Shown in pieces: positions 2,396 to 61,950 of a stretch of DNA of 64,000 nt. Source of the DNA: Diabrotica undecimpunctata. Its lineage: Eukaryota; Arthropoda; Insecta; Coleoptera; Chrysomelidae. The stretch spans positions 130,623,914-130,687,913 of the forward strand of contig NC_092809.1 in NCBI RefSeq assembly GCF_040954645.1. The letters are read 5' to 3'. A program made the translations under genes and the position numbers. Within the stretch, counting starts at the first letter, position 1; each line of letters begins with the position of its first letter. Below the pieces are notes generated by a model, which was given only the letters and a program-made list of their open reading frames with translations, had not been told where the DNA came from and did no database searches.

Positions 2396-3462
2396 AAAAT
2401 ATTAAACAGTTAAAATATAATTAAAAGAATTGAAATGGTTTCGGTCATGACTAAAAGGTTCGGAACCATGCTAAGTTACACGTTGGCTGGTAATGCAGAT
2501 CCAATGCTTACCGACGCTATGCCTGGTCTATGTCGACGCATGCGCAGTGTGTCTGTCTGGTTTGGGTGGCCCATACTCTACTAATAAAGTAGTTTCAAAG
2601 ATAATTACGTTTTTCTTTGTTAATTTCGTAGCAATATCATTACCCCACAGAATTGTAGTGATTTGACATCAAAAACCTATTTATGTTTTACGATTTTTAA
2701 TATAGCCTCTTATTGTACCAAATTAGTAACATAGCGAAATATTTAATTTTGGTATACATGATTGGTTAAAACTTGGAATGAGTATTTTCTGAGTTTTCTT
2801 AAATCGAACACCCTGTATTTTAATATTGTAATGCAATGTTATTTTATGGTACTTTATTATTTATTAAGCATCCCTATACCTAATTGCCTTCATTTGTGAG
2901 TTATTTGTGATTCTTTGAGCCAAACATTAATTGCAACATCAATTAGATGAAATTTTATTAGGTTGGTCGTGAAAATATTTAATGAAAAATAATTATTCGA
3001 AAAAAACAATACCCAATAATCTAGACTGATGCTTAATTTGTTAATATTAGATGAGATATCAAAATAGCTAGGTAAGTAGGTAAAATTTTTGGTGTGTACT
3101 TGTAAAAGTATTAACAAAAACTTGCTTAAAAGTTTGACATTCAACCTCGTATTTTTATGGTTCCTGTTGCTTTACTACTATCACTAACACGAATTTTTCT
3201 AAGCAGGAAGTTATTAATATGGTTTTGGTACTAAAAGAAGAAAAAGAATATTTTATCATCAACAGTTCCCTGATAGACGGCAACCAAGAAGAACGGTTTC
3301 AACGGACCGGACACAGAAATTATGAAAAAACTAATCTACTTTTAAGAACAAAATCTATTGCAAATAACAAAAATTAATTAAATGTAATCATCAATGTTAC
3401 TGAAAATCGGCATATTTGTACAAGGGAAATTGTAAGTATCAAATAATTACCTCCAAATTCAT
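2396..3462. other. No gene recognised
   Basis: No supported gene. A less AT-rich patch at about 2440-2590 has an open frame of about 46 codons that I do not recognise. A lone CACCCTGTA word lies near 2808 without a visible partner. Confidence 0.45.
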
Positions 3463-20751: not shown

Positions 20752-20806
20752 CATAAATTAGACTTATAATAATAATACAAGTGAATACGTAAAATAAATT
20801 GTGAAA

Positions 20807-24553: not shown

Positions 24554-26307
24554 TCCCAAAGAGCAGAATAGCCGAAGTACTTCGTCAGTTACACGACAGT
24601 CCATCGGGAGGGCATTTTGGTGTAAGGAAAACCCTTCAGCGAATTCGGGAACGGTTTTATTGGATGAACAGTTCCGACGACGTAAAAGACTGGTGTAAGA
24701 AATGTACTATTTGTGCTACGAGTAACGGGCCTCACCGGAAAAGGAGAGCTCCTATGAGACAATATAATGTTGGAAGCCCGTTTGAAAGAATAGCTTTGGA
24801 CATCGCTGGGCCATTTCCAGAAAGTGAAAATGGAGGCAAGTACATGCTGGTAGTAATGGATTACTTTACTAAGTGGGTCGAGATTTACGCACTTCCCGAC
24901 CAGAAGGCCGTCACCGTTGCAGATAAGTTGATCCAAGAATATATCAGCCGATTTGGAGTGCCTTTGGAGATACATAGTGACCAAGGCAGGAACTTCGAAA
25001 GCGATCTATTCCAAGGAATATGTGATAGATTAGGCATGAAGAAAACAAGAACTACAGCATATCATCCGCAATCTGATGGTATGGTAGAGCGGATGAATAG
25101 GACAGTCGGCAAGTATTTGACGAAGATGGTGTCCGATCATCAGCGAGATTGGGACCAATACCTTCCGTTCTTCACAATGGCCTACAGATCTGCTGTTAAC
25201 GAATCAACAGGTCAGACACCAGCCAGAGTCCTATTCGGACGCGAAATGCGACTACCTTGTGATCTAGAATTTGGGTGTCGACCTGGAGAATATGTAGCAG
25301 GTGAGGATTATGTGATCGAATTACGAAGAAAAATGGACGATATACATGAGTTGGTCCGTTCCCACCTTCAGATCGCTAGCGACCGAATGAAGAAACGGTA
25401 CGATAAACAAGCCGAAAAGGGTTGCTTTAAGAAGAACGACAAAGTCTGGCTGTATAATCCCAAGAAGCGAAAAGGTTGTTCTCCCAAATTGCAGCAGTTT
25501 TGGGAAGGTCCATACCTCATCATGGAGAAGATCAACGATATCATCTACCGAATAAGCAAGATTCCGAGGGGAAAGCCGATGATAGTACACCATAACCGGC
25601 TGGCGTCTTTCGAAGGTGACCACGACGTAGATGAAGAAGTGGAAGTAAACCAAGTCCAAGACGTGTCTGACCTCACGTTTGAGGAATTCATGGGTGCCTA
25701 TGGAGGTACCGGTAAAGCAAGACATGGTGTTACCACTGAAGAAAAGCAAGATCTACTCGCGCTCCCCGATGACTACTCGCTGGCCCTTACCATCCCGGCC
25801 AGTATCAAAGACGCACCAGGGTTGGCATCCGTCTTTCGAAGGAAGTTTGGTCGAGTTGCAGAACTTCAATGCCAGGTGCCAGCTCCCGGTAAGACCTTGA
25901 AACTCCAAGATGCATCACGTTACCTTTTCTACCTGGTAACAAAAGACACTGCCCGTGACCAACCTACCTACCGAGATGTGTGGGAAGCCTTACTTCAATT
26001 GAGAGAGCACGTACTAGAGTCCGACGTGCAAAAGTTAGCCATGCCAAAGTTGGAGTGCCGCCAATTAGATTGGAGGGTCATCCGAAATATGGTGGAGGAG
26101 ATCTTTAAAGACACCGAAGTCCAGGTGTTAGTCTGTTGCAATCCGCATAGTTACTGGTGCGGAGAGAAAACCGTCCCTTGTCATTTTTATACAACTGGAA
26201 GTTGTAAAAGAGGGTCCAGTTGCCGATACCAGCATACAGTTCCGGTTCCAGTCCCGACAAGGTTCCAGGAGGAACCATCTTTTAAGAGGGGGGCAATGTT
26301 ACGATAA
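24547..26307 (+). CDS. Ty3/gypsy integrase with macro domain and CCCH finger
   Basis: An open frame overlapping the previous ORF in the -1 frame. It is open from about 24522 with no ATG at its start (24547 is TTG), so it must be reached by frameshift or was once continuous. Numbered from 24547: HHCC finger (H16, H23, C50, C53); catalytic core D85, D145, E181 (DD35E spacing); C-terminal SH3-like part to about 355. The frame continues another 230 residues, unusual for Ty3. Residues 400-532 resemble an OARD1-like macro domain (ASVFRRKFGRVAEL, YLFYLVTKD, PTYRDVWEALLQLREH, LAMPKL, VEEIFKDTEVQV). Its usual GCGL loop is replaced by ECRQLDW, so ADP-ribose hydrolysis is doubtful. Residues 545-563 form a CCCH finger (C-x7-C-x5-C-x3-H), likely RNA-binding. 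The stop codon lies inside the 3' LTR. Confidence 0.9.
   Translation: MVIPKSRIAEVLRQLHDSPSGGHFGVRKTLQRIRERFYWMNSSDDVKDWCKKCTICATSNGPHRKRRAPMRQYNVGSPFERIALDIAGPFPESENGGKYMLVVMDYFTKWVEIYALPDQKAVTVADKLIQEYISRFGVPLEIHSDQGRNFESDLFQGICDRLGMKKTRTTAYHPQSDGMVERMNRTVGKYLTKMVSDHQRDWDQYLPFFTMAYRSAVNESTGQTPARVLFGREMRLPCDLEFGCRPGEYVAGEDYVIELRRKMDDIHELVRSHLQIASDRMKKRYDKQAEKGCFKKNDKVWLYNPKKRKGCSPKLQQFWEGPYLIMEKINDIIYRISKIPRGKPMIVHHNRLASFEGDHDVDEEVEVNQVQDVSDLTFEEFMGAYGGTGKARHGVTTEEKQDLLALPDDYSLALTIPASIKDAPGLASVFRRKFGRVAELQCQVPAPGKTLKLQDASRYLFYLVTKDTARDQPTYRDVWEALLQLREHVLESDVQKLAMPKLECRQLDWRVIRNMVEEIFKDTEVQVLVCCNPHSYWCGEKTVPCHFYTTGSCKRGSSCRYQHTVPVPVPTRFQEEPSFKRGAMLR
26283..26296 (+). other. Polypurine tract
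   Basis: AAGAGGGGGGCAA lies immediately before the 3' LTR and overlaps the last codons of the integrase ORF. This is the expected primer site for plus-strand DNA synthesis. Confidence 0.8.
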
Positions 26308-34439: not shown

Positions 34440-36065
34440 CATGATATGGATATGGAGATCGAGTTACAACTAGAATGGGGAGTAGAAGATACTTGGCAAA
34501 AAATCAGGAAATGCATCAACCAAGCAGCAGAAGAAGCAATTGGAAAGCGGAAAATTAACACGAGGGCGATAAACCACACCAAACCATGGTTTTGTCAAGA
34601 GATAAAAGAACTCTCTGAATTAAAACGCAAATGCTACCTGAGATATAAAAGCACACAATCGAAAGAAGCTCTCGCAGAATATGTCCAAGTAAGAAACGAA
34701 GTAAACGCAAGAATAAAATCAATCAAAAGAGAACATTGGGCTAAATTCACCAGCGACATGGACTACGACCTATATGGTGCCTAAAAGAAAGTATGGAAAA
34801 TGCTTCGGAACAGAAAAAAACCAGTTAACGAGTTCGTCCAGACCAAAAGAGCACCTATAGAGACATGGCAACAGCATTTTAAGGAGCTTTATGATGCTAA
34901 AGAAACGCTGAATATAAACGAATACGAAGCAGATATAAGTGCTACAATCAATGACGAAGAGGTAGAAGCAAAGATCAGGAAGCTAAAAAACAGAAAATCA
35001 CCTGAAACAGATGGTATACCCAATGAACTCTTAAAATATGGAGGCCCTGAACTTGCAAGTAAACTGTCACAACTATTTAACAAAATCTTAAACGACACAG
35101 AAACAGCAGAGGAATGGCATAAGAGCATCACAATCCCCATATTTAAAAAAAGACAAAAAACTTGCCTGCAAAACTACAGAGGAATAACCCCCTTAAATAC
35201 AACGATGAAACTTTTCACAAGTATTCTTAAGGACAAATTGGAAAGGCAAATCACTAATGCTGAAGAACAACAAGGTTTTACAAGAGGGCGATCTATAACA
35301 GATGCACTATTCATATTAAAAGAAAAAGCTATAGTTCGGCATGCCAGCGTATATTTGCTTCATTGATCTGACGAAGGCGTTTGACAGTGTTCGCCTGGGA
35401 GACATTCTAAATATATTAATAGAAAATAAAACACCGATCAACATAACAAATATAGTCCATAACCTAAATAACAACAATGTAACCAAAGTTAGAGCAGGAG
35501 ACCAATTCACTGAAAATATTCCAACACCGGAAGGAATTAGACAAGGCGACAGTTTAAGCCCCTTCTTGTTTAACCTACTCATGGGCAAAATTATAAACAA
35601 AGTAACATCTCTCAATCTCGGATACAGAATGGACAACAAAAGAATTGGTATGGTGTGTTACGCAGATGATGCAGCAATTATTGCCGAATCAGAAGATGAT
35701 CTTCAGAGACAGCTCTTTCAGTTCTTTCAAATAAGCCGCCAACTAAATATGACCATTTCTACCAACAAAACTAAATGTATGACAATAGCAAAAGATCCGC
35801 TCAGATGTAAGTTAGTGGTTGAGAACATTCCCATAGAACAGGTGATGCAATTCAGATATCTGGGCATAGATATATCAAGCAGACACGGCCCAGTAACGGA
35901 TCTAAGGAGTCAGATCAACAAAGCATGCGCATTGTCGGGATATCTGCCATAGATAGTCTGGTCAAATCCGTATATGCGCACAGATAGTAAAATTAGAATT
36001 TACAAGACTTGCATACGACCGATCATGACATATAGTATAGAAGTGCGTGAAGATACCAACAAAAC
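34440..36065 (+). pseudogene. LINE ORF2, moderately preserved RT
   Basis: Contains an endonuclease-RT linker (TKPWFCQEIKELSELKRKCY), RT motifs ESPETDGIPNELLKYGG-like (about 35000-35045), SITIPIFKKRQK (about 35125-35160), QNYRGITPLN, EQQGFTRGRSITDA (about 35265-35310), FIDLTKAFDSV (about 35353-35385), EGIRQGDSLSPFLFN (about 35530-35572) and an intact CYADDAAI (about 35656-35680). FRYLGIDIS lies near 35850. Defects are a TAA at 34782 where the frame expects a sense codon, a frameshift near 35335 and a stop at 35950 followed by loss of the tail. No RNase H is visible. It is better preserved than most LINE relics here. Confidence 0.8.
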
Positions 36066-40259: not shown

Positions 40260-40935
40260 ATATACATAATTATATAACTATATTATATGTTAATATGCTA
40301 ACCGTGCTGCACTGATATTTTGGCCACCAGATCGGAAGTCGTTTACAAAACACAAGTTTATTTTAAACGTTAGATGTTTTCTGAATAATTTCCAAAGTGC
40401 TCGTCAAATATTATTAATCGTTAGAAAGTGTTAGTTACCAAAATTAATTTCCAACATAAATGACACACAATTTTTTATTTTGAGATAAAACATCTGTTTT
40501 GTGTCAACGATCTAGTAGCTCCTTTGAAATTGACAAATTTCCTAGTAACACATGGATACATTATTTACTAACTATATATTCTATTGCGAAACATACGATT
40601 TTCATTTTTACACATCATTCAAAAACCTCAGTAACATTCCGTTTCACTTAAATGACTAGGTGTAGGTCATTATTTTCGAATAACGTTTAATATCAATTAA
40701 CATAACTTGAATTTATATTATCATGAAAAAATTATATGTAGTGTTGTAGTTACTTATTATCACATAACTCAACAATTATTATTATAAATAAAAGACCTTA
40801 ATTCAAAGAAAAAACGTAGAACAAAGGATTCACCAGGAAGGAGGTAAACCCAAAGATTACGATAAGCATACCAAATTTCTCTACAAGCAAAAAAATTATC
40901 TCTACTGCTTTCTTGAGTACTAAAACAAAATTAAA
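40260..40935. other. No gene recognised
   Basis: AT-rich. The TA at 40936-40937 is the target duplication of the next element. Confidence 0.45.
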
Positions 40936-41882
40936 TACACTGCGCTCCAAAATTAACGCATAATTTTAAAAACCCTGGTAAATCAAATAATTTTAATGTT
41001 TCGATTTTTGTGGTAATATATTATTGTTATTATTGTATATTGTAAAATTTATCGAAAGAACGGTAAAAAACGCTGATGTTTTTACCATTTTTTGCAAAAA
41101 AATTAAAAACATGCTAATTGTGCTTCATTTTATTTCGAATTTAGTTGGGTTGGATTACGTTGTGCTGAAAGTTTAAAGGGGTTTTTCAAGTTTATTAAGT
41201 GTTTTTTCTTTGAAATGAACCGCCAGCAGCAAGAAAATCGAAATTTGTCAGGAAGAGACTGTTTTACGTTACTGTTCGCGAAGAAGGATACACTCAAGTA
41301 GAACTCGCTGAACGGTTTCACGTCACACAGTCTACCATTTCAAGAGTGTTAACACGTTTTTCTGTTAGAGATAGTTCAAACACTCCTGACCATGGAGCTG
41401 CGCGAAGGCGGAGTCAAATTCACGTAAAGGCAGAAAGGTTCTATTGTAAGTGGAATTATACAGTGCATAGTACAATGTGTTTCGCATGGAAGTGGGGACT
41501 AAACCAAATTTCGTCTACTGCGCCGTGGTCAGGAGTGCTTGCACTATCTCTACTGGAAGTAACTCGAGAAGACCCGGTCAAGGCCGTAGAAGGGTAACAA
41601 CTCCTAATCAAGACCGGTTTTTGACACTTCGGACACTGCCACAAAGGTTTGTTACCAGTACTTCTCTACAAAATGAATTATGAAGTTAAATGTGTCGATA
41701 GCAATTAAAGTAAATTGTATACTCACGCTTAATCAAGCCATTAAGAGCGATGCTGGGAATATTTATATTCCACTAAGCATCAACAATTTACCCATGTAAA
41801 TTACTATCTTTCTTGTACTCATTGCGTCGAGTAAGGACGATAAATATGCGAAAATGGTTGCGTTTCGATTTAATTTGAGCTT

Positions 41883-41940
41883 CTGACCACTCCCTGACAC
41901 GTGTTTCTGGGTCTTCCCGTCATCAGAGAGAGCTTGTAAG
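41883..41940 (-). ncRNA. Hammerhead ribozyme, unit 1
   Basis: The minus strand carries CTGATGA, GAAA and the cleavage triplet GTC as in unit 4, in the same spacing. The distal helix I has one change (TCAG instead of TAAG), giving a mismatch there, so this is the least regular copy. Confidence 0.75.
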
Positions 41941-42237
41941 AAAACTCAAACTAAACCAAAACGCACCGGCTACTCGGCAATTATAGACAAAATAATTACC
42001 AGAGTATGCTACTAGAGACATCTAGTGATGAAAGATGAAGTTAAATGTGTCGATAGCAATTAAAGTAAATTGTATACTCACGCTTAATCAAGCCATTAAG
42101 AGCGATGCTGGGAATATTTATATTCCACTAAGCATCAACAATTTACCCATGTAAATTACTATCTTTCTTGTACTCATTGCGTCGAGTAAGGACGATAAAT
42201 ATGCGAAAATGGTTGCGTTTCGATTTAATTTGAGCTT

Positions 42238-42295
42238 CTTACCACTCCCTGACACGTGTTTCTGGGTCTTCCCGTCATCAGAGAGAGCTTGTAAG
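42238..42295 (-). ncRNA. Hammerhead ribozyme, unit 2
   Basis: The minus-strand copy has the same 58-nt sequence as the plus-strand units at 42736, 43091 and 43446. Its self-cleavage would fall after the C of GTGTC. Confidence 0.8.
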
Positions 42296-42735
42296 AAAAC
42301 TCAAACTAAACCAAAACGCACCGGCTACTCGGCAATTATAGACAAAATAATTACCAGAGTATGCTACTAGAGACATCTAGTGATGTCTCTAGTAGCCCCA
42401 GAAAGAGAACCCAGAAACACGTGTCAGGGAGTGGTAAGAAGCTCAAATTAAATCGAAACGCAACCATTTTCGCATATTTATCGTCCTTACTCGACGCAAT
42501 GAGTACAAGAAAGATAGTAATTTACATGGGTAAATTGTTGATGCTTAGTGGAATATAAATATTCCCAGCATCGCTCTTAATGGCTTGATTAAGCGTGAGT
42601 ATACAATTTACTTTAATTGCTATCGACACATTTAACTTCATCTTTCATCACTAGATGTCTCTAGTAGCATACTCTGGTAATTATTTTGTCTATAATTGCC
42701 GAGTAGCCGGTGCGTTTTGGTTTAGTTTGAGTTTT

Positions 42736-42793
42736 CTTACAAGCTCTCTCTGATGACGGGAAGACCCAGAAACACGTGTCAGGGAGTGGTAAG
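42736..42793 (+). ncRNA. Hammerhead ribozyme, unit 3
   Basis: Plus-strand copy, CTGATGA at 42750-42756, predicted cleavage after C42780. A truncated ribozyme (42408-42438) lacking CTGATGA precedes it by one period. Confidence 0.82.
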
Positions 42794-43090
42794 AAGCTCA
42801 AATTAAATCGAAACGCAACCATTTTCGCATATTTATCGTCCTTACTCGACGCAATGAGTACAAGAAAGATAGTAATTTACATGGGTAAATTGTTGATGCT
42901 TAGTGGAATATAAATATTCCCAGCATCGCTCTTAATGGCTTGATTAAGCGTGAGTATACAATTTACTTTAATTGCTATCGACACATTTAACTTCATCTTT
43001 CATCACTAGATGTCTCTAGTAGCATACTCTGGTAATTATTTTGTCTATAATTGCCGAGTAGCCGGTGCGTTTTGGTTTAGTTTGAGTTTT

Positions 43091-43148
43091 CTTACAAGCT
43101 CTCTCTGATGACGGGAAGACCCAGAAACACGTGTCAGGGAGTGGTAAG
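43091..43148 (+). ncRNA. Hammerhead ribozyme, unit 4 (type I)
   Basis: Helix I: GCTCTCT (43098-43104) pairs with AGGGAGT (43136-43142), including two G-U pairs. After an internal loop (CAA/GG), CTTA pairs with TAAG. Core CTGATGA spans 43105-43111. Helix II is GGG-AAGA-CCC, closed next to the core by an unusual C-A opposition. Conserved GAAA follows. Helix III is the self-complementary ACACGTGT, with no loop of its own, so it pairs best between two RNA copies, as in retroelement hammerheads. Predicted cleavage is after GTC at 43135. All invariant core bases (CUGAUGA, GAAA, A15.1-U16.1, C17) are present. Confidence 0.83.
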
Positions 43149-43445
43149 AAGCTCAAATTAAATCGAAACGCAACCATTTTCGCATATTTATCGTCCTTAC
43201 TCGACGCAATGAGTACAAGAAAGATAGTAATTTACATGGGTAAATTGTTGATGCTTAGTGGAATATAAATATTCCCAGCATCGCTCTTAATGGCTTGATT
43301 AAGCGTGAGTATACAATTTACTTTAATTGCTATCGACACATTTAACTTCATCTTTCATCACTAGATGTCTCTAGTAGCATACTCTGGTAATTATTTTGTC
43401 TATAATTGCCGAGTAGCCGGTGCGTTTTGGTTTAGTTTGAGTTTT

Positions 43446-43503
43446 CTTACAAGCTCTCTCTGATGACGGGAAGACCCAGAAACACGTGTCAGGGAGTGGT
43501 AAG
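43446..43503 (+). ncRNA. Hammerhead ribozyme, unit 5
   Basis: Identical core and helices to unit 4, one 355-bp period downstream (CTGATGA at 43460-43466, cleavage after 43490). The array ends 33 bp after this motif. Confidence 0.82.
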
Positions 43504-44592
43504 AAGCTCAAATTAAATCGAAACGCAACCATTTTCACAAAATGAATTTTTGGATCGTTATAACTTTAGAATCAGCCAAAATACGATTCGAAGAAGACTT
43601 GCCGAAAACGACCTACACCCTGAAAGGGCACCAATTGGCCCATTGTTGACCAGAGACCATAGAAGGCAAAGATTGCATTTTGCTCGTGAACATGTTCATT
43701 GGAATAATGACGATTGGGGAAGAATATTGTTCACAGATGAATCCAGGTACTGTCTTTTTTCTGATGACAGGAGAAACCTGGGGAACGCTACGCAAAGTGT
43801 AACACCGTAGGGACTTTACAGTATGGCGGCGGCTCGGTAATGGTGTGGGGTGGGATTAATTTAGAGGCTCGTACGGAATTAGTTAGAATAGATCGCGGTC
43901 GGCTTACATCGCAGAGGTATATAACAGACATTTTAGAAGAGCATGTCGTACCATTTGCATCATTTATTGGGGATAATTTCATGCTTATGCAAGATAATGC
44001 CAGGCCACACACGGCAAGAATTGTGCAGCAGTATCGTCAGAAGGTTGTAATTCCTGCCATGGATTGGCTTGCGAGAAGTCCTGACCTCAACCCAATAGAA
44101 CATGTTTGGGACATCATAAGCAGACGACTACGACAACTACCTAATGCACCAAACACATTAGATGAACTGTTTTTGCGGTTGGTTGAAATTTGGGATCAAA
44201 TTGATCAAGAAGAAATCAGAACGATTATTCTCAGTATGAGAGATAGTTGCCAAGCAGTAATAAATCCCAGAGGAGGCAATACTCGATACTAGTACACGGT
44301 ACTAGTATTTTCTTCAACTTTAAAAATTTCAATTTCGTCATTAATTTATAATGTTAGTTTGTTTAGATCAGTTGTTTGTTTCGATGTTTACATTTATGAT
44401 GTTATATTGTTAATTTCAATACATTTTTTGTAAAAAAAGAAAAGTTTTTTATTTAAAATGTTCTAAAACAACCATAAAGCAGAAAACAACAAACAAACAT
44501 TTTTTTCATTTTTTTCAACTCAAAATAAGAATTTTAAAATTATGCGTTAATTTTGGAGCGTAGTGTATTTCGAAACATAAACATCCACATAT

Positions 44593-45060: not shown

Positions 45061-45420
45061 TAGAAGCTACTGAAGAACCTTATCTCAAAAAAACGTATTA
45101 TATAGGATCTATTATGCATAATTCAATGTGAAATTTTGAATCTATATATAATTTTTGTCAAGGGACTAAATAAATAAAATTTTGAAAGTAATAATTTATC
45201 ACACTTTAAGTAATGGTTTTTTTTTAAGTAACTAAATATAGACATCAATTTTCTTAACTGAATATCAATATATTGGGTTTTGTATTTAATTTCTTGATTA
45301 AAATTATACATAATTTCAAAATTTTACCTTGTAATATTCAATAGTGTCCTGTAGCGATCCTTTCCCAAATTAAAATATTTTCTGTAAGTTTTTCATATCT
45401 TGTAATCCCCATAAATAAGT

Positions 45421-45428
45421 GTGTGTAT

Positions 45429-45467
<39 letters not shown>

Positions 45468-45482
45468 AGAGAGAGAGAGAGA
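45421..45482. repeat. (GT)n(GA)n compound microsatellite
   Basis: GT-dinucleotides to about 45464, then GA-dinucleotides to 45482, directly upstream of a LINE relic. Confidence 0.95.
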
Positions 45483-45534
45483 ATATGGCTTGGAAACAGG
45501 TCCGTTAGCCACAGATTTTTATTTTTAATTTTTT

Positions 45535-46310
45535 TTGTCGAAGGACGACACCGTCCTTCTGGCAGAAACACTAGAATAACTGCAACAACTTTTGCTGAAC
45601 AACTAAATACATATTGCAACGATTATGGACTAAAAATTAATTTGAAGAAAACCAAGTTCATGATATTTACAAAAGCACAAAACATCAAAGTTAAGCTAGT
45701 ACTAGATAATACAGAAATTGAACAAATATCTTCGTACAAATACCTTGGAGCATGGATTACAGAAGATACTGATCAGACAAAAGAAATAAGATGCCGCATT
45801 GAGATTGCACGGTCAACTTTTAATAGAATGAGAAAACTTTTTGTAATCGCGATATCAATATATCGCTCCGAATAAGAATGTTTCGATGTTATATTTTCTC
45901 TACCCTTTTGTATTGGGTTGAAGCTTGGACACTTAAAAAATCCAACATTAAAAACCTAGAAGCATTTGAAATGTGGTATTACCGACGTATTTTCAAAATA
46001 TCATAGATGGATCGCAAAACAAACGAACAAATTTTCGAACAACTAGGAAAACAATGCGAAGTTTTAAATTCCATAAAAGTCAAGAAATTGGAATACTTGG
46101 GGCACATCATGAGAGGTGAAAAATACGAACTACTAAGGAATATAATGCAGGGAAAAATCAAAGGCAGAAGAAGCGTAGGAAGACGTAAAATCTCGTGGCT
46201 ACGCAATCTCCGTGAATGGTTTGGATGCAGTTCAATTGAACTATTCAGGCGCGTAACTAACAAAATTATAATTGCCAGAATGATTTCCAATCTGCGATAG
46301 GAGAGGAACT
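45535..46310 (+). pseudogene. RTE-like LINE ORF2, from active site to C-terminus
   Basis: Starts at the RT active site (KDDTVLLAETLE, about 45543-45578, with K for the first residues of YADD). It continues with NDYGLKINLKKTKFMIF, YKYLGAWITEDTDQTKEIRC, IEIARSTFNRMRKLF, a frameshifted LFYWVEAWTL-like block (about 45910-45930), VKKLEYLGHIMRGEKYELL and GRRSVGRRKISWLRNLREWF, and ends near 46298. Its C-terminal family is the same as 56700-57405. It is severely 5'-truncated, with stops near 45580 and 45873. Confidence 0.8.
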
Positions 46311-47289: not shown

Positions 47290-48031
47290 TCACTTTAGAC
47301 AAATTATTTTTTATATTACATGAAACTGTAGATTTGTATGAACTGAAATCTATGTTTTTAATTCCATATATGGCATCTGGAGCTTATTATCACAGCTTTT
47401 TTAATATTTTTTTCTTATATTCATTCTAAAGCTTTTTCGATGGCTCGATGGTTCAGCTGTAAAAATACTATTAATACTATATAATTTGTAATTATTGTAT
47501 TGGTGGGTATTTTGCATATACATAGCACATCCAACTCCTGTTTGATTTTTAGAACCGTCTGTGTAAGTTATTGTGTAATCGACAAAGTCCCTCAGTATAG
47601 ATTTTACTAAAATATGGCTTAATTGATTTGATTTTGTATATTTTGGAATTATGATTCTTGGTTTTTTTATTAAATTTTGTATGAAAATTTATAAATTGGT
47701 AGTAATTTATTTTTCTGTAATTCTGTATAATTCCTGTTGTTTTTTTTTATATTTCGATAAGTTTCCCAGTTGGTCGAAGATTTAATCCATTTTCTACTTA
47801 GTTGTATTGTACTGCTATTATATCTCCTTGTTAATATTGTATTTATGGGAAAGTGGTCTGAGCCTAGTGTATTATGTAAAGGATTCCAGTCTACGTAAGC
47901 GATCAAGTTTGGTGAAATAAGTGTAAGATCCACAGAAGAAGAATTTTTATTTGGTCTCGTAATTTTAGTAGGTCTACCATTATTTAAAACAATAAAATTG
48001 AGATTTTCTAGGACATCTACTAAATTATTAT
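47290..48031 (-). pseudogene. LINE ORF2: endonuclease C-terminus joined to RNase H
   Basis: Reading downward: DNNLVDVLENLN (about 48028-47993), VDLTLISPNLIAYVDWNPLH and LGSDHFPI (47935-47850) are the end of an APE endonuclease. After a linker, near 47560-47430 the frame reads YTITYTDGSKNQTGVGCAMY and SIFTAE, the RNase H start. The reverse transcriptase between them is missing (internal deletion). The upstream endonuclease half lies across the foldback insertion at 50827 and beyond. Confidence 0.75.
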
Positions 48032-48034
48032 CTT

Positions 48035-50826
48035 TAGCCCAGTCTGGTTAAAAAAAAGGTCGAAAAATGTTTCGCAAATATTTGAAGCTTTTAAGACATA
48101 GGTGGGGGTTACTAGATGACGAATAGATGAAAATATACTCCTATTTTTACCTTGCATTTTTTTAAACAATAAATTATGATCACAATTTGATTTTTTGTCT
48201 ATAAGTTTTTTCCCTTATATTTTAAATAAACAATATTTATATCATTTTTTTATATCAAGAATATCTTTATTTTCCCGTTTTTTCAATTAAAATTCATAAA
48301 TAATTTACGAGATATTTGTAAAAAAGCAGTTTTTGCACTAATTTATAAATTGTATTAATTTTTTTATTAACAAAATAAAATGTTATTAATACATTTAAAC
48401 ATCGAGGAATTACCGTCTTTTAAATTTGTGCGAAATTTCCCCCCGATCGGTCAAATAGTTTAAAAGTTATTTAATTTGTTTATCCCTGAGCCTAATTATT
48501 TAAACTATTGAGCTTGCCCTATGCATAATGCTACACACATTTAGCAAATTTCATAGGATTCTTTAAGACTTACACTATGTCAGAAGTTAAATGCGTATTG
48601 CGTTTTCATCGAAATTATTTATAAAATAAACCTTTGAAAAAAGGGGTATGTTTTTTACTTATAAACAATTGTAATAACTTCTATATTTTTCAAGCTACAG
48701 ACTTGTACGTACAAGCATTGGATAGCTGGTAAAAAAACTCACATAAAAAAATATAAAACCTTCTATGACCAATAGGGACGAAGTTAGCGACTATTATTTT
48801 AAAATCATATCACCATTGTTTATAAACATTAAGAAGTAAAATTAGCACAAATTTTGAATGAAAATCTAAACTTTATATTGAAACTTATGGCTATAAAATT
48901 CATCTAATTTTTCGAAACTTAAAGCCCTTCGAAGCGAAGGTACTTTCGAAAGATCAACATAGGAAAGTGAAGAGGATAACTGTTTCAGCTCCGTTTTTTT
49001 TTTCGACATCGGAACTTCAAATTGCAACATGTAGGAAAAATCTCGGCTTCCATTGCAGCTGGAAGCCTCTTTTTTTATTCTGGGGTAGCTCGTCGAAATA
49101 TGAATACCTACATAGTTTTCACTTGCCGGAAAATATGGGAAACCTCGTAAAAATTGAGTCCATTTGAAATTCACCGTAAATACTTACTTTTTTTTTTAAT
49201 TTGGCTGGAATAGTCTGTCGCAGCATTAATATTGATGACATAATTTTCACCCCCCATAAATCTCGGAAAATCCCGGAAATCAACATATATTTTTTCATTT
49301 TATATCAATGATATAATAATACTTATATATTTTATAAATTAAATTTCAGGTAATTTTTTACACAATATATTAATATATTCCTTATATTAATTATAATTGT
49401 TTGTATTTTTATAATTAACAATATTGATTTTTATTCTATTTTTCGTACAAATATGATATACAATATTAATCTAATCTGCGTTACTGCTTTGATAAAATAA
49501 GTCGATTTTTTCATCACTTGTCTTATTATATTTTGCAATGTTTATTGAACTTTCCTTTTTTATTTTCTTTGCATACATTGGTTTAAAAGTTAAAATTTGG
49601 TTCATTCATTCGACTTCACTGTCAGCTCTGAATCTTTTTGTTGCAGGTTGTTTGTCTTCACTTATTAAGTAAGTCTATAGATATACATCTTCAGAATCAC
49701 TGTCGTCATCAAACGTAACTGTACCGAGGTTGCAGCATATTTTCTCCTCTTCTTTTAGTTAAAACTTTTTTGTTCAAAAAACACAAAATATTTTACTTAA
49801 AGAAGTATAAGTATATTGCTTTCTAAAGCCACTACACTGAGACTGGCGAAATTTTGGAGCGAGGAGCTAAAACAGTTTCCCCTCCACTTTCCTATGTCGA
49901 TCTTTCGAAAGTAACTTCGTTTTGAAAGGCTGTAAGTTTCGAAAAATTGGATAAATTTTATAGCTATAAGTTTCAATATAAAGTTTAGATTTTCATTCAA
50001 AATTTGTGCAAATTTTATTTCTTAATGTTTATAAACAATAGAGATATGATTTAAAAAAAAATAGTCGCTAATTTCGTCCCTATTGGTTATAGAAGGTTTC
50101 TTTTTTTTATATGTGAGTTTTTTTACCAGCTATCCAATGGCTGTACGTAAAAGTCTGTAGCTTGAAAAATATAAAAGTTATTACAATTGTTTATAAGTAA
50201 AAAACATACCCCTTTTTCAAACGTTTATTTTGTAAATAATTTCGATGAAAACGCAATATGCATTTAACTTCTGAGATAGTCTAAGTTTAAAAAATCCTAT
50301 GAAATTTGCTAAATGTGTCTAGCAAGGGCAAGCACAATAGCTTAAATAATTAGCCTCAGGGATAAACAAATTAAATAACTTTTAAACTATTTGATCGATC
50401 TGGGGGAAATTGTGCATAAATTTAAAGAACAGTAATTCCTCGACGTTTAAATGTATTAATAATATTTTATTTTGTTAATAAAAGAGTTAATTAAATTTAT
50501 AAATTAGTGCAAAAAAACTGCTTTTTTGCAAATATCTCGGTAAATTATTTATCAATTTTAATTGAAATAACGGAAAAATAAAGATATTCTTGATATAAAA
50601 AAATGATATAAATATTGTTTTTTTAAAATATAAGGGAAAAACTTATAGACAAAAAATCAAATTGTGACCATAAATTATTGTTTAAAAAAAAACGCAATGT
50701 AAAAATAATAGTATCTTTTCATCTATTCGTCATCTAGTAACCCCCACCTATGTCTTAAAAGATTCAGATATCTGCGAAAAATTTTGCCGTTAAATCGATG
50801 ATTTTTGGCATAACTAGACTGGGCTA
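48035..50826. mobile_element. Foldback-type DNA element, copy 2
   Basis: A 2,792-bp relative of 6867-9786 with the same TAGCCCAGTCTGG termini. The left arm is about 48035-48995 and the right about 49862-50826. CTT flanks it (48032-48034, 50827-50829). Deleting the element and one CTT rejoins the LINE endonuclease frame (minus strand, SLRDN...DNNLVDVL, with one stop codon at the joint). This independently supports a 3-bp target duplication. The interior lacks the LINE fragment seen in copy 1 and retains a short acidic coding remnant. Confidence 0.88.
49560..49745 (-). pseudogene. Possible C-terminal remnant of a foldback-element protein
   Basis: One minus-strand frame gives CCNLGTVTFDDDSDSEDVY, then SEDKQPATKRFRADSEVE and NQILTFKPMYAKKI with two stops. 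Acidic and basic low-complexity stretches look like the tail of a nuclear protein. Copy 1 has the matching second half (about 8380-8480) with substitutions. No domain is recognised, so the function is unknown. Confidence 0.3.
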
Positions 50827-52399: not shown

Positions 52400-54458
52400 A
52401 CCGGATCTAAACATCCCACTAAAATCTGATGGCGATATTGAGGAATCAGTAGATCAATTAAATAGGATAATTCAAAAAGCTGGCTGGCAGTCAAGGCCCA
52501 CACAAACAAAAGCAATCATACAGAAAGACTTACCCAACGAAATAAAAGAAAAAATCGCAGAAAACCGAAGACTAAGAAAAATCTGGCAAAGAATCTGAGC
52601 ACCTCAGGATAAAAATAGATTAAACCAAGCTACAGCAAGATTAAAAACATTGTTAAACAGCAATAAAAACAATGACATAAAACGATATTTACAAAATCTA
52701 TCTGCCACGGAAGCCTCCGAATACTCACTATGAAAGGCAACACGAAAAATTAATCGACTACAACTTTCTAATCCGTCTATTCGGGTCAGTAACGACAATG
52801 GGCCAAAAGTAACAAAGAAAAAGCCACAGTCTTTGCGAAATACCTGAAGGAAGTGTTCCAACCACATACTCAAAACAACAACCCCGATGCAAAAGATAAT
52901 ATACAATCGTATTTAGAATCTCCATACCAACTAGAAGCACCATTGGAGAAATTCACTGCCAAACAAGTTTTCAACAAAATCCAAACAGATCTGAATCCGA
53001 AGAAGTCCCTAGGGTTCGACTTAATTACTGCAAGAATTCTAAAAGAACTTTCCAAGAAAGGAGTGCAATATTTAACACAGATTTTTAACAAATCCTAAGA
53101 ACTGATTACTATCTCCTTTTGTGGAAAGTTGCACAGATCATTTTAATACCCAAGCCAGGCAAACTTGTAGAAGAAGTTAAGTCCTATAGACCTATTAATC
53201 TACTTTCAGTGATATCAAAGGTTTTTGAAAAACTACTACTAGACAGATTACAGCCAATCCTCGTACAACAGCAGCTACTATCCAACCACCAGTTTGAATT
53301 TAGACATCATGCATGCTACCATTGAGCAAATTCAGCGAATCCGCAATTCCATAAACAAAGCCTTAGAAGAGAAGAAATACTTTGCAGCCTTTTTGGATAT
53401 CTCGCAGGCTTTTGATAAAGTCTTGCACACTGGCGTGCTATACAAAATAAGACAAAAGTAAAGGATCAGTGCACTAACTTATATCCAATTAAAGCTGGAG
53501 TACCCCAGGGTAGTGTCCTTGGACCTGTTCTCTACCTACTTTACACAGTAGATCTTCCTACAAGTCAAAACATCGCCACAGCCACATACGCAGACGACAC
53601 AATCTTTGCGGCTTACTCAAACCCGTATATCGCCTTACAACTGCTCCAGACCAATCTCGACAAAATAAAGATTTGGTTACAAACATGGCGAATTAATGTT
53701 AACGAAAGCAAGTCAGTACATATAACGTTCACTAATCGAAAAGGTAAATGCCCAACCATCTCATTAAATAACCAAATACTACAACAAAAGGATGATGTAA
53801 AATACTTAGGTATGCACCTGGACCGTAGATTAACGTGGAAGAAACACATTCACGAAAATAAAACAGTTGGGTCTGAAACTCAGTAAAATGTACTGACTAA
53901 TAGGAAAAAGATCACAACTGAATTTGTACAATAAAATCCTAGTATACAAGTCAGTAATAAAGCCAATATGGAACTATGGGATCCAACTGTGGATCAAGAT
54001 CCAATATCGACATACTGGAGAGATTCCAATCGAAGACCTTCCGCATTATCACAAATGCACCGGGGTACATGCCCAATGAGTTCATCAATCGCGATCTTCA
54101 GATGAAAACTGTCAAAGAAGAAATTGTCAGTTACTCCCAAAAATATGACAGACGACTGCAAAACCACCCCAACAGGCTAGCAAAGAACCTTATGAGGCCC
54201 CAGGTAAACACAAGGCTAAAGCGACTTACTCCAAGATTTTAAACTTTTAAATTTTTTTTTATTTATTATAAACATTACATTAGAGTCACAAATAACTTAC
54301 TAAACTTATTATGACTATGACATTAACTAAAATTATGATTTAATGGGTTATTGTCACTGGATAGTCTTCTGCAGTGTCTTTTGTAATCTAATTAAACAAT
54401 TTGCTTATTGTAATCCTTATTAGAGATTGTAAATAAATGGGATGTTCAAAAAAAAATT
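52400..54458 (+). mobile_element. Jockey-like LINE, 5'-truncated, with poly(A)-type 3' end
   Basis: ORF2 remains, in order: a linker with KDLPNEIKEKIAENRRLRK (about 52527-52585), a pre-RT block with PKKSLGFDLITARILKEL (about 52999-53052), KVAQIILIPKPGK (about 53124-53160), SYRPINLLSVISKVFEKLLL, FGYLAGF-type remnants, KAGVPQGSVLGPVLY (about 53490-53535) and intact TYADDTIFAA (about 53583-53615). VKYLGMHLDRRLTWKKHI (about 53799-53850), then the C-terminal ILERFQSKTFRIITNAPGY and NRDLQMKTVKEEI to the TAA at 54240 complete it. No RNase H follows RT, as in the Jockey clade. The 3' UTR ends AATAAATGGGATGTTCAAAAAAAAA near 54458. At least four frameshifts and several stops make it inactive. Confidence 0.85.
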
Positions 54459-54559: not shown

Positions 54560-55195
54560 CAGATTTTTTTATAAGGAAATTTTCATATCGAGAATATTGC
54601 AGAAGAATTTAATATAAATGTAAAGGAAGTTCGGAAAATACTTGAAAACCTGAAGAACAGAAAAGCAGCAGGTAAAGACGGGATGCCAAACGAATTACTG
54701 AAATAATGTGAAGCAGCAATGACAGAACAATTAAAAACATTAATTAATAAAATTATAAAACACAATAAAATACCGGAAGAATGTAGAACGAGCGAACTAA
54801 TTCTACTATTCAAAAAAAGAGATAAAATAACAGACAGAAAACTACAGAGTTATAAACTTGTTAAATACTACGCTAAAACTAAAATTTTACTACATTGCTA
54901 TAATCAATCAGAGGATAAGTTTAGCAGATGAACAACAGGGTTTTCGTAGTGAAAGATCGTGTACAGATGCAATATTCGTTATAACGCAAATTAATGAGAA
55001 ATTACTGGAGTATAATAGACCAGCATTTCTATAACTGATTGACCTAAAGAAAGCGTTTGACAGAGTAAGGCTCAAAGATGTAATCCATCTTCTGTATAAT
55101 AGAGAAGTTCCCATAAATATTATAAAAACTATCGAAAACATTTACCAAAACAACAAAATGGAAGTCAGAATAGATGGACAACTAGTTCGGATTAG
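54560..55195 (+). pseudogene. LINE RT fragment
   Basis: Frames give NLKNRKAAGKDGMPNELLK (about 54650-54705), IPEECRTSELILLFKKRDK (about 54770-54830) and, shifted, DEQQGFRSERSCTDAIFVI (about 54928-54985), LIDLKKAFDRVRLKDVIHLL (about 55035-55095) and NNKMEVRIDGQLV. It is related to the LINE at 34440-36065. It breaks off at about 55195, where endonuclease sequence of a different LINE begins. Confidence 0.75.
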
Positions 55196-57405
55196 GAACT
55201 AGAAACGAGAGAGGAGAAAGGCTCATAGAATTCTGCCAAGAAAAGAATATGGTAATTGCCAATACTTGGTTTCAGCTTCCTAAGAGAAGACTATATACAT
55301 GGACGTCTCCTTCACATACAGAAAACCACATTGTTAGAAACCAGATAGACTTTATACTCGTAAATAGCAGATATAAAAACTCTACAACCTCAGTTAAAAC
55401 TTATCCTGGAGCAGATGTTAACTCAGACCACAATCCGTTAGTTGCTGACGTGAAAATAAAATTAAAAAGAATTAAACTCAGAAAACAACAACCAAAAATT
55501 AATGTAAGAATGCTAAAAAACGAAGAAATAAAAAACGAATTAAAAAATAATGTGAATGTTAATATGCAAAAAACACTAACTGACAACAAGCAAATTAAGG
55601 ATGTAAATAAAAAGTGGTATAATATAAAAAACACATTAGTGAAATCAGCTCAAGAAAGTTTAATCCAACATAGGTCAGAGGCTAAAAAAACAGTGGATGA
55701 GAGAAGAAATACTATTACAGATGGAAGAAATAAAAAAATATAAAGGAAAAGATCTACAGAAGTATAAAGAAATACAACGAATAATTAAGGGAAAAATGAA
55801 AACAGCTAAAGAAATCTATTTGATGAAACAATGTGAAGAGATAGAAGAACTAGAAACAAAATATATGAGAAATATGCACAAAAAAAAAGAGAAGTGACTG
55901 AAATGGGTCGAAATAGACAGGAAGGATACATAAAAGACAAAAAGGAGTACTACTAATAGATTTACCAGATAAATTAAGACAATGGGAGGAGTACGTTAGA
56001 GAACTTTTATGTTCATGTATTATGCAGAAAATACAAGAATTAAATCCTTTAGAGAGACAAAAGATCACGATAGATGAAACCAAATATGCTATCAAAAACT
56101 CTAAAGACAATAAGGCAGCTGGATTAGATGAAATACCACTAGAACTGTTAAAACTAGTGGAAGAGGATAACAAAAGTGGCTGAAGTCAGCATTTATAACC
56201 ATCCCTAAAAAACAAGCAGCAAAAGAGTGCTCTGCAGATCAACATATTGATTCAGCGATGTCGGGATGTAAACGTTGATCTACACTTGTGCTTTGTTGAC
56301 TACGAAAAAGCTTTCGATAAAGTAAGACATGAAAAACTAATATCAATACTTATGAACAAGCGCATTGACAGTAAAATTATAAATATAGTACAAACATTAT
56401 ATTGGAACCAAAATGCCATAGTTCAAATTGATGGGCAACACTCAGAAGAAATGAAGATCTGTAGAGGAGTTAGACAGGGATGTGTTTTATCGCCACTTTC
56501 GTTTAACTTATATTCTGAAGAAATGTTCCAAAACACGCTCAATAATATCAAAGCGGGAGTTACGGTTAACGGAAAATTAATTAACAACTTACTTAGCAAC
56601 AAAATTATGCAGACGACACTGTGATTATAGCAACGAGTATAGAAGATCTACAACATCTTATCGAAAGCTTAAGTATGAATAGTGCTGAGATGAGAATTAC
56701 TATAAACGGTAAAAAAACGAAGTACATGCTAATTACAAAAAGACCACAAAATATACATCACCTATTGACAATTAATGGTAACGTGATAGAACAAGTAGAA
56801 AAATATCAGTACTTGGGAACTTTGATCAATGAAACCAATGATCGTACTGTAGAAATAAACAGGAGAATAGAGATTGCCAGATCAGCATTTATATGAATGA
56901 AGACACTCCTAACGTGCAAAAATCTAAATTTGGAGTACAGACTACGTACCATTCGCTGTTATATATTTTCAATATTATTATATGGAGCTGAGACCTGAAC
57001 TTTAAAAAAATGTAATTTAAAAAGAATCGTGGCTTTCGAACTCTGGTTATACCGCAGAGTATTAAAAATATCATGAACTGATAGAATTACAAATAAAGAA
57101 GTACTGGAGAGGGTTGGTAAAGAAACAGAACTAATCACCACTATACAAACCAGAAAACTGGAATACCGAGGCCACGTGATGAGGGGACCAAAATATGAAA
57201 TTTTGAGACTCACAATACAGCGAAAGATTCAAGAAAGAAGATCTGTTGGCCGAAGACAGAACTCAGGGTTGAAGAATCTAAGTGACTGGTATCAATGCAG
57301 ATCGAATGATTTGTTTAGAGCAGAAAGTTTAAAAACAAAAATTGCCATTAGATTGCCAACCTCCGTAGGGAGAAGGCACTCTAAGAAGAAGAATTTTATA
57401 GCTTA
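55196..57405 (+). pseudogene. RTE-like LINE ORF2, nearly full length but broken
   Basis: Begins within the endonuclease: RGERLIEFCQEKNMVIAN, RRLYTWTSPS, NQIDFILVNSRYKN and VNSDHNPLVADV (55212-55450). A long basic linker follows (to about 55890). The RT is shifted and partly deleted: AAGLDEIPLELLK (about 56118-56157), HLCFVDYEKAFDKV (about 56283-56325), CRGVRQGCVLSP (about 56460-56495), intact YADDTVIIATS at 56606-56638, QYLGTLINETNDR (about 56807-56845), RCYIFSILLYGAET and the tail RKLEYRGHVMRGPKYEILR and RRSVGRRQNSGLKNL to about 57403. A deletion around 56165-56230 removes the RT fingers. It has the same family tail as 45535-46310. Confidence 0.82.
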
Positions 57406-60087: not shown

Positions 60088-61401
60088 CTAATCAGTGATT
60101 TTTGATAAACCTTTAATCGAAGAAACATTTTGGTTCCGATGTTCCGGTAGTGAGTTCTCGTCAGAACATCCTGGTAGTGGGTTTTGTTCATAATTTTCTC
60201 TATCTGTTGTTATAGACGGCAAAAATTGCCAATCCTCGAAGACATCTGGATTGAACGGTTCTATTCCTGTCTTTTTAAATGCATTTATTGCATTTGATGG
60301 AAGAGCACTTTTTAAATATGCTTTATTAAAGATACTAGCTACTTTAAATTGGGTAACTGTTTTACCTGGATTCTGTCGCAGCCATAATTGAATTTCTTGG
60401 CCGTAGTAAGTTTGAAGTGGTCTAAAAAATCCTACGTCCAAGGGTTGAACGTGATGAGAGCAATGAGCAGGAAAACAAAACATAATAATACCGTTTTCTT
60501 TTGCAAACTGGAGAGCTTCAAAACTTTTATGACTACCATGACCATCGAGTAACAACAAAACTTGGTTGGTTTTAGAAGCCTTTGAATACCTTAAAAAATG
60601 TTGCAGCCAGAGACAGAAAATGTCGGAAGTCATCCATCCTTTTTCTTGAGCGAAGGCTACACTTCCAGTAGGTGCATCGATCATAAGTTCGTCTTTCTTC
60701 CTCTGTCGAGGAAAAATCAAAGCAGGAGGAACATATGTTCCAATTGCATTCATTGCACATACGACCGTAATATGTAGACCGCGTTCTGCACTACTTAAAG
60801 CACCAACTTGTTTGCGACCTTTACTAGCATAAATCTTCTGCGATCTCTTTTGCACAGTTGTCAAACCGGACTCGTCCATGTTATAAATGTTTTCCGGTGG
60901 AAATTGAAACTCGTCTAATATATGTGCTAATGCTGTAAAATAGGCACATATATTTGGTTTATTAAAAGCTTGAGCCCTTGCCAACGAAGTATTTTCTGGA
61001 GTTCGTAATGATAATCGTGGATTTCGCTTTAAAAAGCCTCTGACCCATTTCCAGCCTGCCATCTTGGTTTCCTTATTAAAACTGTGGCTAATATTGTTTA
61101 TTTCAGCTACTTCGTATACAAGTTTTCGTAAATCTTTACTGGTCAGGCCAAAAAAACGAGCTTCCATGGTGATAATATGGTCAGCAATTTCCTTTTCAAT
61201 AGCAGTGGAAAATATTGGTCTTCGTCCTCCCAAATCACCTTTGGTACTTCCTTGCTGCTTATTAAAGCGCCTTTTCAAAGTCGTTTTTGGAATGTTAAAT
61301 GTTTTTGCTGCCAACTTAAACCCCATAGTTTTTTCTTGTATGCTTTTTAAAGCTTGCTGCATATTACTCTCATTCCACTGTTGCCTTTTATGAGGATCCA
61401 T
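60088..61401 (-). CDS. Pogo-like transposase (DDE_1), nearly intact
   Basis: 437 aa from the ATG at 61399-61401. The open frame extends upstream to 61503, but those codons are the element's subterminal repeats, and a splice-acceptor-like TTTTACAG precedes this ATG, so the downstream start is preferred. Residues 10-46 form a psq/pogo helix-turn-helix (KLAAKTFNIPKTTLKRRF). Residues 65-145 resemble a CENP-B second DNA-binding domain. The catalytic domain has NMDESGL (D176), LLLLDGHGSHKS (D286) and HHVQPLDVGFF (D322), DD35D spacing. It would cut and paste the element at TA sites in the nucleus. The frame ends at TAG 60088-60090, which removes a PHD-like tail still readable downstream. The catalytic core looks complete. 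Confidence 0.9.
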   Translation of the reverse strand: MDPHKRQQWNESNMQQALKSIQEKTMGFKLAAKTFNIPKTTLKRRFNKQQGSTKGDLGGRRPIFSTAIEKEIADHIITMEARFFGLTSKDLRKLVYEVAEINNISHSFNKETKMAGWKWVRGFLKRNPRLSLRTPENTSLARAQAFNKPNICAYFTALAHILDEFQFPPENIYNMDESGLTTVQKRSQKIYASKGRKQVGALSSAERGLHITVVCAMNAIGTYVPPALIFPRQRKKDELMIDAPTGSVAFAQEKGWMTSDIFCLWLQHFLRYSKASKTNQVLLLLDGHGSHKSFEALQFAKENGIIMFCFPAHCSHHVQPLDVGFFRPLQTYYGQEIQLWLRQNPGKTVTQFKVASIFNKAYLKSALPSNAINAFKKTGIEPFNPDVFEDWQFLPSITTDRENYEQNPLPGCSDENSLPEHRNQNVSSIKGLSKITD

Positions 61402-61950
61402 CCCTGTAAAATGTATTATGTTAATCGTTAAGTAGCAACTTATTTCCTTTTTCCTATGATGGACCCTTAGTCCGTCATAGGTAACGACAAAGGGGTCCAT
61501 CATAGGTTAATAGACAAGACAGTAAATTTAATTCTGTTACTTTTGTTTTGACCATTCTAACCTAAAACAAAGTATAGTATTTGACAAAGAAAGTGTAGTC
61601 ATTTTATACAAAACAAAAGAAACACTTAGCTTAACGTATGTTACCAGTAAAATATTACTTACCAAAAAATTTTATTAGATCAGCAACACCAAATTTTAAT
61701 TTTATTTCGGGGTCTGAAACTTTGCAAATACTAAACTACAAACTTCGTGCGCAAGCGGCAACAGCGATGTGCATGTAACCGCGCCATGTTTGAAATTACA
61801 GCAGGTGGTCCATCATAGGCAGGGGTCCAACATAGGCACACTTCCCCTACTTACTTCAGTCAGTAGTCAGTATCGGTTCGAACGTCTAACGAGGCTAAGA
61901 CTATTTTCTCTTTAGTTTTTTGTTAAAAAGTGGAACTAAAAAAGAAGATA

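Follow-up and report, generated by a model that had tools for sequence, protein, structure and literature searches.

A hammerhead retrozyme in a Tc1-like element of Diabrotica undecimpunctata, with opposed arms and two fixed outer ends

The head-to-head insert and its hammerheads

The window analyzed here is a 64,000-nucleotide (nt) stretch of the Diabrotica undecimpunctata genome (contig NC_092809.1, positions 130,623,914 to 130,687,913). In this window, a Tc1-like element is interrupted by an insertion of 1,857 bp at 41680-43536, which is built exclusively of copies of a 355-nt unit and one 23-nt junction. As a preliminary description made from the sequence had claimed, the unit is exactly 355 bp long (37.5% GC), and its copies are near-identical throughout. 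The unit positions are numbered R1 to R355 from 42409 onward, in the hammerhead sense. The same description took the insertion for a single tandem array, which proved mistaken. The orientation flips at 42386-42408, and two opposed arms, the minus-strand one of approximately 2.0 units and the plus-strand one of 3.2 units, are joined head-to-head; this inversion and the two fixed starts reported below had been missed. The features are as follows.

40933..44570, plus strand: Tc1-like element that hosts the insert, with terminal inverted repeats of 39 nt (97%), a DDE_3 domain at 43768-44289 and Tc1-like homologues
41668..41679, unstranded: left target site duplication, ACAAAATGAATT, an exact 12-bp match to 43537-43548
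41680..42385, minus strand: left arm, 706 nt, 1.99 units, outer end at R233 (site B), hammerhead sense on the minus strand
41890..41932, minus strand: type I hammerhead of the outer left unit, RF00163 28.0 bits, E 1.2e-4, descriptor match, predicted cleavage after 41896 as read on the minus strand
42245..42287, minus strand: type I hammerhead of the inner left unit, RF00163 28.0 bits, E 1.2e-4, descriptor match, predicted cleavage after 42251 as read on the minus strand
42386..42408, unstranded: head-to-head inner junction, 23 nt, of which 11 nt complete a palindrome and 12 nt are filler
42409..43536, plus strand: right arm, 1,128 nt, 3.18 units, outer end at R63 (site A), hammerhead sense on the plus strand
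42744..42786, plus strand: type I hammerhead of the right arm, RF00163 28.0 bits, E 6e-4, predicted cleavage after 42780
43099..43141, plus strand: type I hammerhead of the right arm, RF00163 28.0 bits, E 6e-4, predicted cleavage after 43135
43454..43496, plus strand: type I hammerhead of the right arm, RF00163 28.0 bits, E 6e-4, predicted cleavage after 43490
43537..43548, unstranded: right copy of the target site duplication, 12 bp, an exact match to 41668-41679

The right arm was identical to a tandem of the unit at 1,128 of 1,128 nt, and the 706 nt of the left arm differed from it by a single mismatch at 41885. At the inner junction, the 11 nt of 42386-42396 complete a palindrome with 42363-42377, giving a 15-nt perfect inverted repeat with a 4-nt loop; in a segment search, the 12-nt filler was found to repeat in part the hammerhead segment CCCAGAAA. 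The longest stop-free stretches of the unit, both strands considered, were 60 and 71 amino acids (aa), and a protein search with the 71-aa stretch gave no homologue at E 10 or better.

The 12-bp direct repeat that brackets the insert had also been described correctly, since no third occurrence was present on either strand of the whole window. The insert and one repeat together measure 1,869 bp, which is divisible by 3, and a 156-aa frame runs across the site when the flanks are joined with one repeat copy. The claim that deletion restores the Tc1 frame therefore stands for the site itself; however, the joined sequence still lacks a single open transposase frame, indicating that the Tc1 gene is broken elsewhere too. 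When a 184-base query across the joined site was searched in the genome, it aligned end-to-end or nearly so at 40 of 40 scored Tc1 places (the best 40 of 267 candidates), and the six uninterrupted copies that were aligned were all ungapped across the joined site. These uninterrupted sites are paralogous, being other Tc1 copies in the same genome. Because of the target duplication, the uninterrupted paralogous Tc1 copies, and the dispersed copies with target duplications of their own (see below), it is well supported that the array is a mobile, retrotransposed insertion of the animal-retrozyme type and not a locally grown satellite, in line with the preliminary description.

A type I hammerhead had been proposed for each unit. 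All five copies in the window matched the Rfam Hammerhead_1 covariance model (RF00163) at 28.0 bits, which is below the gathering score of 34, so that a default Rfam scan reports no hammerhead. The E value of 6e-4 is from a search of a 3.6-kb stretch, in which the minus-strand copies were not listed, and that of 1.2e-4 is from a search of the left arm alone. A type I descriptor, which was composed after the sequence was seen and lets the basal pair of helix II be mismatched, matched five times in the window, always inside the array, and once in 200 first-order Markov windows. Throughout the 55 genomic loci described below, the hammerhead core was retained in 281 of the 294 copies that span it and was absent from 13, and a C.A mismatch at the base of helix II (R342-R9) was found in 280 of the 281 core-bearing copies. 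Helix III had been described as palindromic and loopless. The palindromic ACGU was found, but the sequence is better read as 2 bp (AC/GU) closed by this tetraloop than as a loopless helix. In what we take to be the standard hammerhead numbering, the two pairs are A15.1-U16.1 and C15.2-G16.2, and cleavage is predicted after the GUC at R17.

The linear unit is predicted to fold at -119.5 kcal/mol (z -7.6 against 100 shuffles), the circle at -113.4 kcal/mol, and the circle constrained to the hammerhead fold at -108.7 kcal/mol. Covariation in the unit was uninformative, with 21 distinct substitutions keeping and 19 breaking predicted pairs (53% kept vs 40% in the null). Extra conservation of the hammerhead was unsupported as well: its diversity was 0.008 vs 0.017, but 125 of 355 rotations of the unit equal it. 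Pattern scans of viral contigs gave no exact match, and a looser pattern occurred in two contigs, which were judged to be chance matches in phage-like coding DNA.

Outer ends and shared variants of the genomic copies

The unit was searched in the genome assembly (1.743 Gb, 2,867 contigs) in two surveys. The first comprised 39 loci (the window and L011-L048), which were all those recognized among the 180 matches listed, and all of them were mapped. The second comprised the 16 loci listed by a divergent-copy query (L049-L064), and it was collected after the rule of end clustering had been noticed. The resulting 55 loci are the best-scoring of 1,112 and 1,129 candidates, respectively; the sample is thus biased toward long-armed copies that resemble the queries, and not toward any orientation or end position.

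Two arms were found in 48 of the 55 mapped loci, and in 48 of these 48 the arms were head-to-head. The outer ends fell at two sites of the unit, site A at positions 63-71 and site B at positions 219-236 (median 231). One A end and one B end were present in 46 of the 48 two-arm loci, and neither two A ends nor two B ends occurred at any locus. Among the 33 A+B loci of the first sample, the A ends lay at R63-70 (median 65) and the B ends at R228-236 (median 231). Under the bin used at first, 12 of the 13 new two-arm loci of the second survey were A+B; in the final tally the B bin was widened to include L053 at R219, and that assignment is post hoc. Target duplications of 10-17 bp (mean 13.1) flanked 45 of the 46 A+B loci, while L062 was A+B with a repeat of 6 bp only. 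Target duplications flank other copies too, contrary to one condition that the preliminary description had named as refuting it, and 45 of the 55 loci are A+B two-arm inserts of this kind. At L035 and L036, two arms were present with one canonical end, one other end, and no duplication.

Among the seven one-arm loci, six had an end in the B range (L021, L034, L041, L060, L061, and L064), hinting that B may prime the first strand. The seventh, L042, had an A-like end at R73 by plain alignment, and it was left outside the A and B classes since its apparent repeat sits in TA-rich sequence.

The two arms of a locus share their variants. At ten diagnostic sites, opposite arms of the same locus agreed in 391 of 393 comparisons, whereas arms shuffled 500 times agreed in 53% on average and in 69% at most. 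The mean arm difference was 0.5% within a locus (46 of the 48 loci with enough overlap) vs 2.5% between loci, and the own opposite arm was the closest or jointly the closest in 35 of 46 loci. Furthermore, 86 of 106 array blocks, chained with a 12-nt tolerance, were longer than one unit, the longest being 15.3 units, and 294 copies crossed the cleavage site within one alignment. Two inserts were very large: L057 consists of 10.7 + 10.7 units, and L054 has the arm of 15.3 units. The units of L057 showed no deviation from their locus majority, yet differed by approximately 3.7% from the window unit.

The inner ends behaved differently from the outer ends. In the first sample they were dispersed round the unit (70 ends, Rayleigh R 0.12), and the six of the 70 that fell at R1 reflect alignments broken where units adjoin. 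None of the 48 inner junctions was identical to another, and two pairs were within 5 nt on both sides, suggesting that the majority of inverted copies arose independently. On the same grounds, it is unlikely that they were copied from a master RNA that was itself inverted. The 48 junctions comprised 16 with an overlap of at least 2 nt, 7 that were flush within 1 nt, 12 with a filler of 2-10 nt, and 13 with a filler of more than 10 nt; since BLAST ends may overrun by a few bases, the overlaps are approximate. By eye, the fillers of L012, L020, L023, and L046 resemble stretches of the nearby arm ends copied repeatedly, much as template switching or theta-type end joining would produce.

These observations also bear on how the inverted arrangement arose. 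Inverted repeats are known trouble spots for assembly, and a direct tandem satellite or insert could in principle have been inverted later by recombination, or the inversion could be an assembly artefact. Such an origin is scarcely credible: the arms are unequal, the outer ends are fixed, the duplication surrounds the pair of arms, the inner junctions differ, and the site is uninterrupted in other Tc1 copies. Satellite growth and the subsequent inversion of an originally direct array were both rejected on the fixed ends, the duplications, and the diversity of the junctions.

A second possibility is that priming occurred once and that the complementary DNA (cDNA) then snapped back and primed itself to make the inverted arm. 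For the inverted repeats of Penelope, self-priming is one proposed origin (PMC3846280), and the 15-nt palindrome with its 4-nt loop at the window junction is of the form that it would leave. However, a second arm made in this way would mirror the first, and the observed arms are unequal in length and phase, each with a fixed outer end of its own. As the source of the inverted arm, self-priming is thus very improbable; alone it was rejected for the long arms on these features, though it could explain the 11 nt at the window junction.

Probable integration from two start sites

The fixed pair of starts, one per target strand, together with the target duplications and the shared variants, favors target priming on both strands and points to Penelope-like machinery. 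We consider it probable that a single RNA circle is the template of each array and that bidirectional target-primed reverse transcription copies it from two fixed start sites, each serving one target strand. Copying of a circle through more than one lap from two starts would explain both the shared variants and the multi-unit blocks simply.

In outline, transcripts of existing copies would self-cleave at the hammerhead and be ligated into 355-nt circles, as expected from the retrozyme family. An endonuclease would then nick both strands of AT-rich DNA approximately 13 bp apart, the distance suggested by the observed duplications, and leave two 3' ends. Each 3' end would prime on the same circle, one at A (approximately R65) and the other at B (approximately R231), and each polymerase would travel round the circle, often for more than one lap, in keeping with the multi-unit arms observed. 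Finally, end joining would unite the inner cDNA ends, through overlaps or with filler, and the product would be a head-to-head array flanked by a duplication. The fixed outer ends and the common template of the two arms are observed, and the small circular RNA, its self-cleavage, the priming, and the enzyme, which most likely comes from a Penelope-like element, are what we infer. We further entertain, as a tentative proposal, that integration is obligately two-site: the two start sites lie nearly opposite on the ring and may be engaged together by a dimeric reverse transcriptase (RT), whose subunits would use the 3' ends of different target strands, so that the rolling-circle cDNAs converge head-to-head.

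Short matches between the primer and the RNA were present at both start sites. The match of the primer end to the RNA beside the start averaged 1.60 nt at site A, against 0.83 nt in a null that allows for border ambiguity (reached in 0 of 2,000 trials), and 1.16 nt at site B, against 0.77 nt (reached in 21 of 2,000). The target ends were 80% A+T, and their most even feature was a T at positions 2-3 beyond the cut. Such short matches would also be expected if a long interspersed nuclear element (LINE) mobilized the unit by classical twin priming, in which the LINE enzyme nicks the target and chance priming of the second strand on the RNA produces inversions; LINE-type RT and endonuclease pieces are moreover common in the window. 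Twin priming of LINEs, however, yields a minority of inserts and has variable internal priming sites, whereas here 48 of the 55 loci carry two arms, with ends at two fixed sites. No poly(A) was seen at the insert ends displayed for the mapped loci. We therefore regard mobilization by LINEs as distinctly unlikely.

As to a helper enzyme, GIY-YIG domains scored above the cut-off at no fewer than 73 places in the genome (at least 73; the best 150 of 6,686 candidates were scored). At L075, a 339-aa frame carries GIY-YIG downstream of a further stretch, which we take to be typical of Penelope RTs; a search of this frame against solved structures gave no useful match. A stretch of the L075 type stands at L079 beside a weak RT match (E 0.012, below the cut-off). 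In L079 1351-3212, GIY-YIG pieces at approximately 1351-1899 (minus) and 2847-3212 (plus) face outward with RT-like sequence between them, an arrangement that resembles the relic of a head-to-head Penelope insert. It is thus very likely that Penelope-like relics exist in this genome. In the window, a Pfam search of 36 of its 43 frames of at least 120 aa gave no GIY-YIG at E 0.01.

Several observations weigh against copying of a circle from two starts by Penelope-like machinery. The hammerhead does not reach the Rfam gathering score, and the C.A mismatch at the foot of its helix II is fixed. Seven of the 55 loci are one-arm, and two of these, L034 (13 bp) and L061 (11 bp), have a clear duplication, so that single-primed inserts seem to occur. 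An extra block or a gap interrupts one arm at L013, L044, and L051. In 11 of 46 loci, an arm was nearer to one from another locus than to its partner, and by a wide margin in L020 and L039. Sites A and B showed no significant similarity to each other, as 8% of other segment pairs score as well, and their proximity in the predicted fold is unremarkable, as 23% of pairs at that spacing are equally close. A and B are approximately 166 nt apart with one used per strand, whereas the Penelope-like enzyme in vitro starts at adjacent sites without a strand difference (PMC11167929). Moreover, no active Penelope element came to light, none at all was tied to the retrozyme inserts, and an Rfam search of ten GIY-YIG loci, with approximately 1.5 kb on each side, gave no hammerhead.

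The shape of the template is a further point of this kind. The same two-site priming could have taken place on an uncleaved, linear multimeric transcript; the arrays are near-homogeneous within a locus, so that copies made from the transcript of a single array would be uniform as well, and cleavage by the ribozyme is dispensable for insertion in vitro (PMC11167929). Nevertheless, the source arrays observed are for the most part short and themselves inverted, and still one arm extends to 15.3 units; among the 35 inner junctions of the first sample, no filler is longer than 39 nt. A linear multimer accordingly seems unlikely to us, while retaining an appreciable chance.

The return of ribozyme-made RNA circles to the chromosome is left open in the text of PMC7229834 drawn on here. 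The fixed pair of starts, the target duplications, and the shared variants form a genomic record of this integration step. The start sites give exact positions on the RNA, and they provide a signature to be sought in other genomes. The inserts are long inverted repeats, which may in principle be able to yield double-stranded RNA.

Other elements occupy the rest of the window. A Ty3/gypsy-like long terminal repeat (LTR) retrotransposon lies at 20798-26304 on the plus strand, with a gag-protease-RT-RNase H frame (1,251 aa) and an integrase with a terminal CCCH zinc finger (594 aa). A pogo/Tigger-like transposase frame at 60091-61506 on the minus strand carries DDE_1 and HTH_psq; its best named relative, a protein of the leaf beetle Diabrotica undecimpunctata, shares 96% identity over 68% of the query. 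A piggyBac-like transposase lies at 62750-63604 on the plus strand (DDE_Tnp_1_7, E 1e-55). Pieces of RT or LINE-type endonuclease, some below curated cut-offs, were found at 1657-2139, 15314-16298, 34785-35949, 45345-45872, 47673-48047, 53419-53883, and 55186-56621.

Comparison with known systems

The insert is an animal (metazoan) non-LTR retrozyme, a kind of element defined by Cervera and de la Pena (2020; PMC7229834). Metazoan non-LTR retrozymes are low-GC repeats of approximately 170-400 nt with one type I hammerhead per unit and no LTR features, their target duplications, when present, are longer than 4 bp, and their RNA is strongly self-paired (PMC7229834). The 355-nt unit resembles these, being low in GC, non-coding, of fitting length, and strongly self-paired in the predicted fold, with a type I hammerhead in each repeat and dispersed insertions whose duplications exceed 4 bp; the window insert contains nothing beyond unit copies and the 23-nt junction. 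The arrangement differs, since the main text of PMC7229834 tells of tandem repeats and does not contain the word "inverted". Here tandem order holds inside each arm, whereas in 48 of the 55 inserts two such arms stand opposed, head-to-head and mostly with two fixed starts. Arrangement is taken as descriptive, and the opposed arms do not remove the insert from the non-LTR retrozymes. A satellite, as a long local array without target duplications, does not describe it, as the arrays are dispersed and most have duplications.

A further likeness by description is the axolotl HHR_Amex2 retrozyme, with a 353-nt unit and a 2-bp helix III with a tetraloop (PMC7229834). The foot of helix II is non-pairing in both, U.U in HHR_Amex2 and C.A here, and cleavage of HHR_Amex2 is slow in the monomer but improves in the dimer (PMC7229834). 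The two differ in host, and the axolotl arrangement is described as tandem. The W-elements of Schistosoma mansoni likewise have satellite-like units, some working hammerheads, copies off the main arrays, and one possible target duplication; however, they form long tandem arrays, and two-start inverted inserts go unmentioned in the portions of PMC8490949 drawn on here. Plant LTR retrozymes are also non-autonomous hammerhead elements, and theirs move through an RNA circle, but they have a type III hammerhead, LTRs, a primer binding site, and 4-bp duplications (PMC4918200).

Penelope-like elements resemble the inserts in a different way. Priming of metazoan retrozymes was left open in PMC7229834, either target-primed or via a small RNA, with Penelope-like elements as strong candidate helpers. 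Among Penelope inserts a head-to-head layout is frequent, its junction bearing a palindrome, and the duplications, where present, measure 8-10 bp (PMC3846280). In vitro, both strands of the target are cut and extended by a Penelope-like enzyme that prefers AT-rich DNA, with a preference for ATT, and starts at two adjacent internal sites of the RNA with no apparent strand difference (PMC11167929). Hammerheads, head-to-head ends, junction palindromes, duplications of similar size, two reverse-transcription start sites, and extension of both strands in vitro are thus the points of likeness (PMC3846280, PMC11167929). Head-to-head termini were found at 48 of the 55 loci here, the palindrome being established for the window only. 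In contrast, Penelope-like elements encode their own RT with GIY-YIG protein and have pseudo-LTRs and adjacent starts (PMC3846280, PMC11167929). The 355-nt unit encodes no such protein, no frame on either strand exceeding 71 aa, and both of its arms are often multi-lap copies.

In the literature, no description of a two-start head-to-head retrozyme was found among the titles and abstract openings of the matches listed; with supplements and most subscription papers outside this scope, a prior description is possible. The element is of a known kind, and its integration signature is new and sharply defined.

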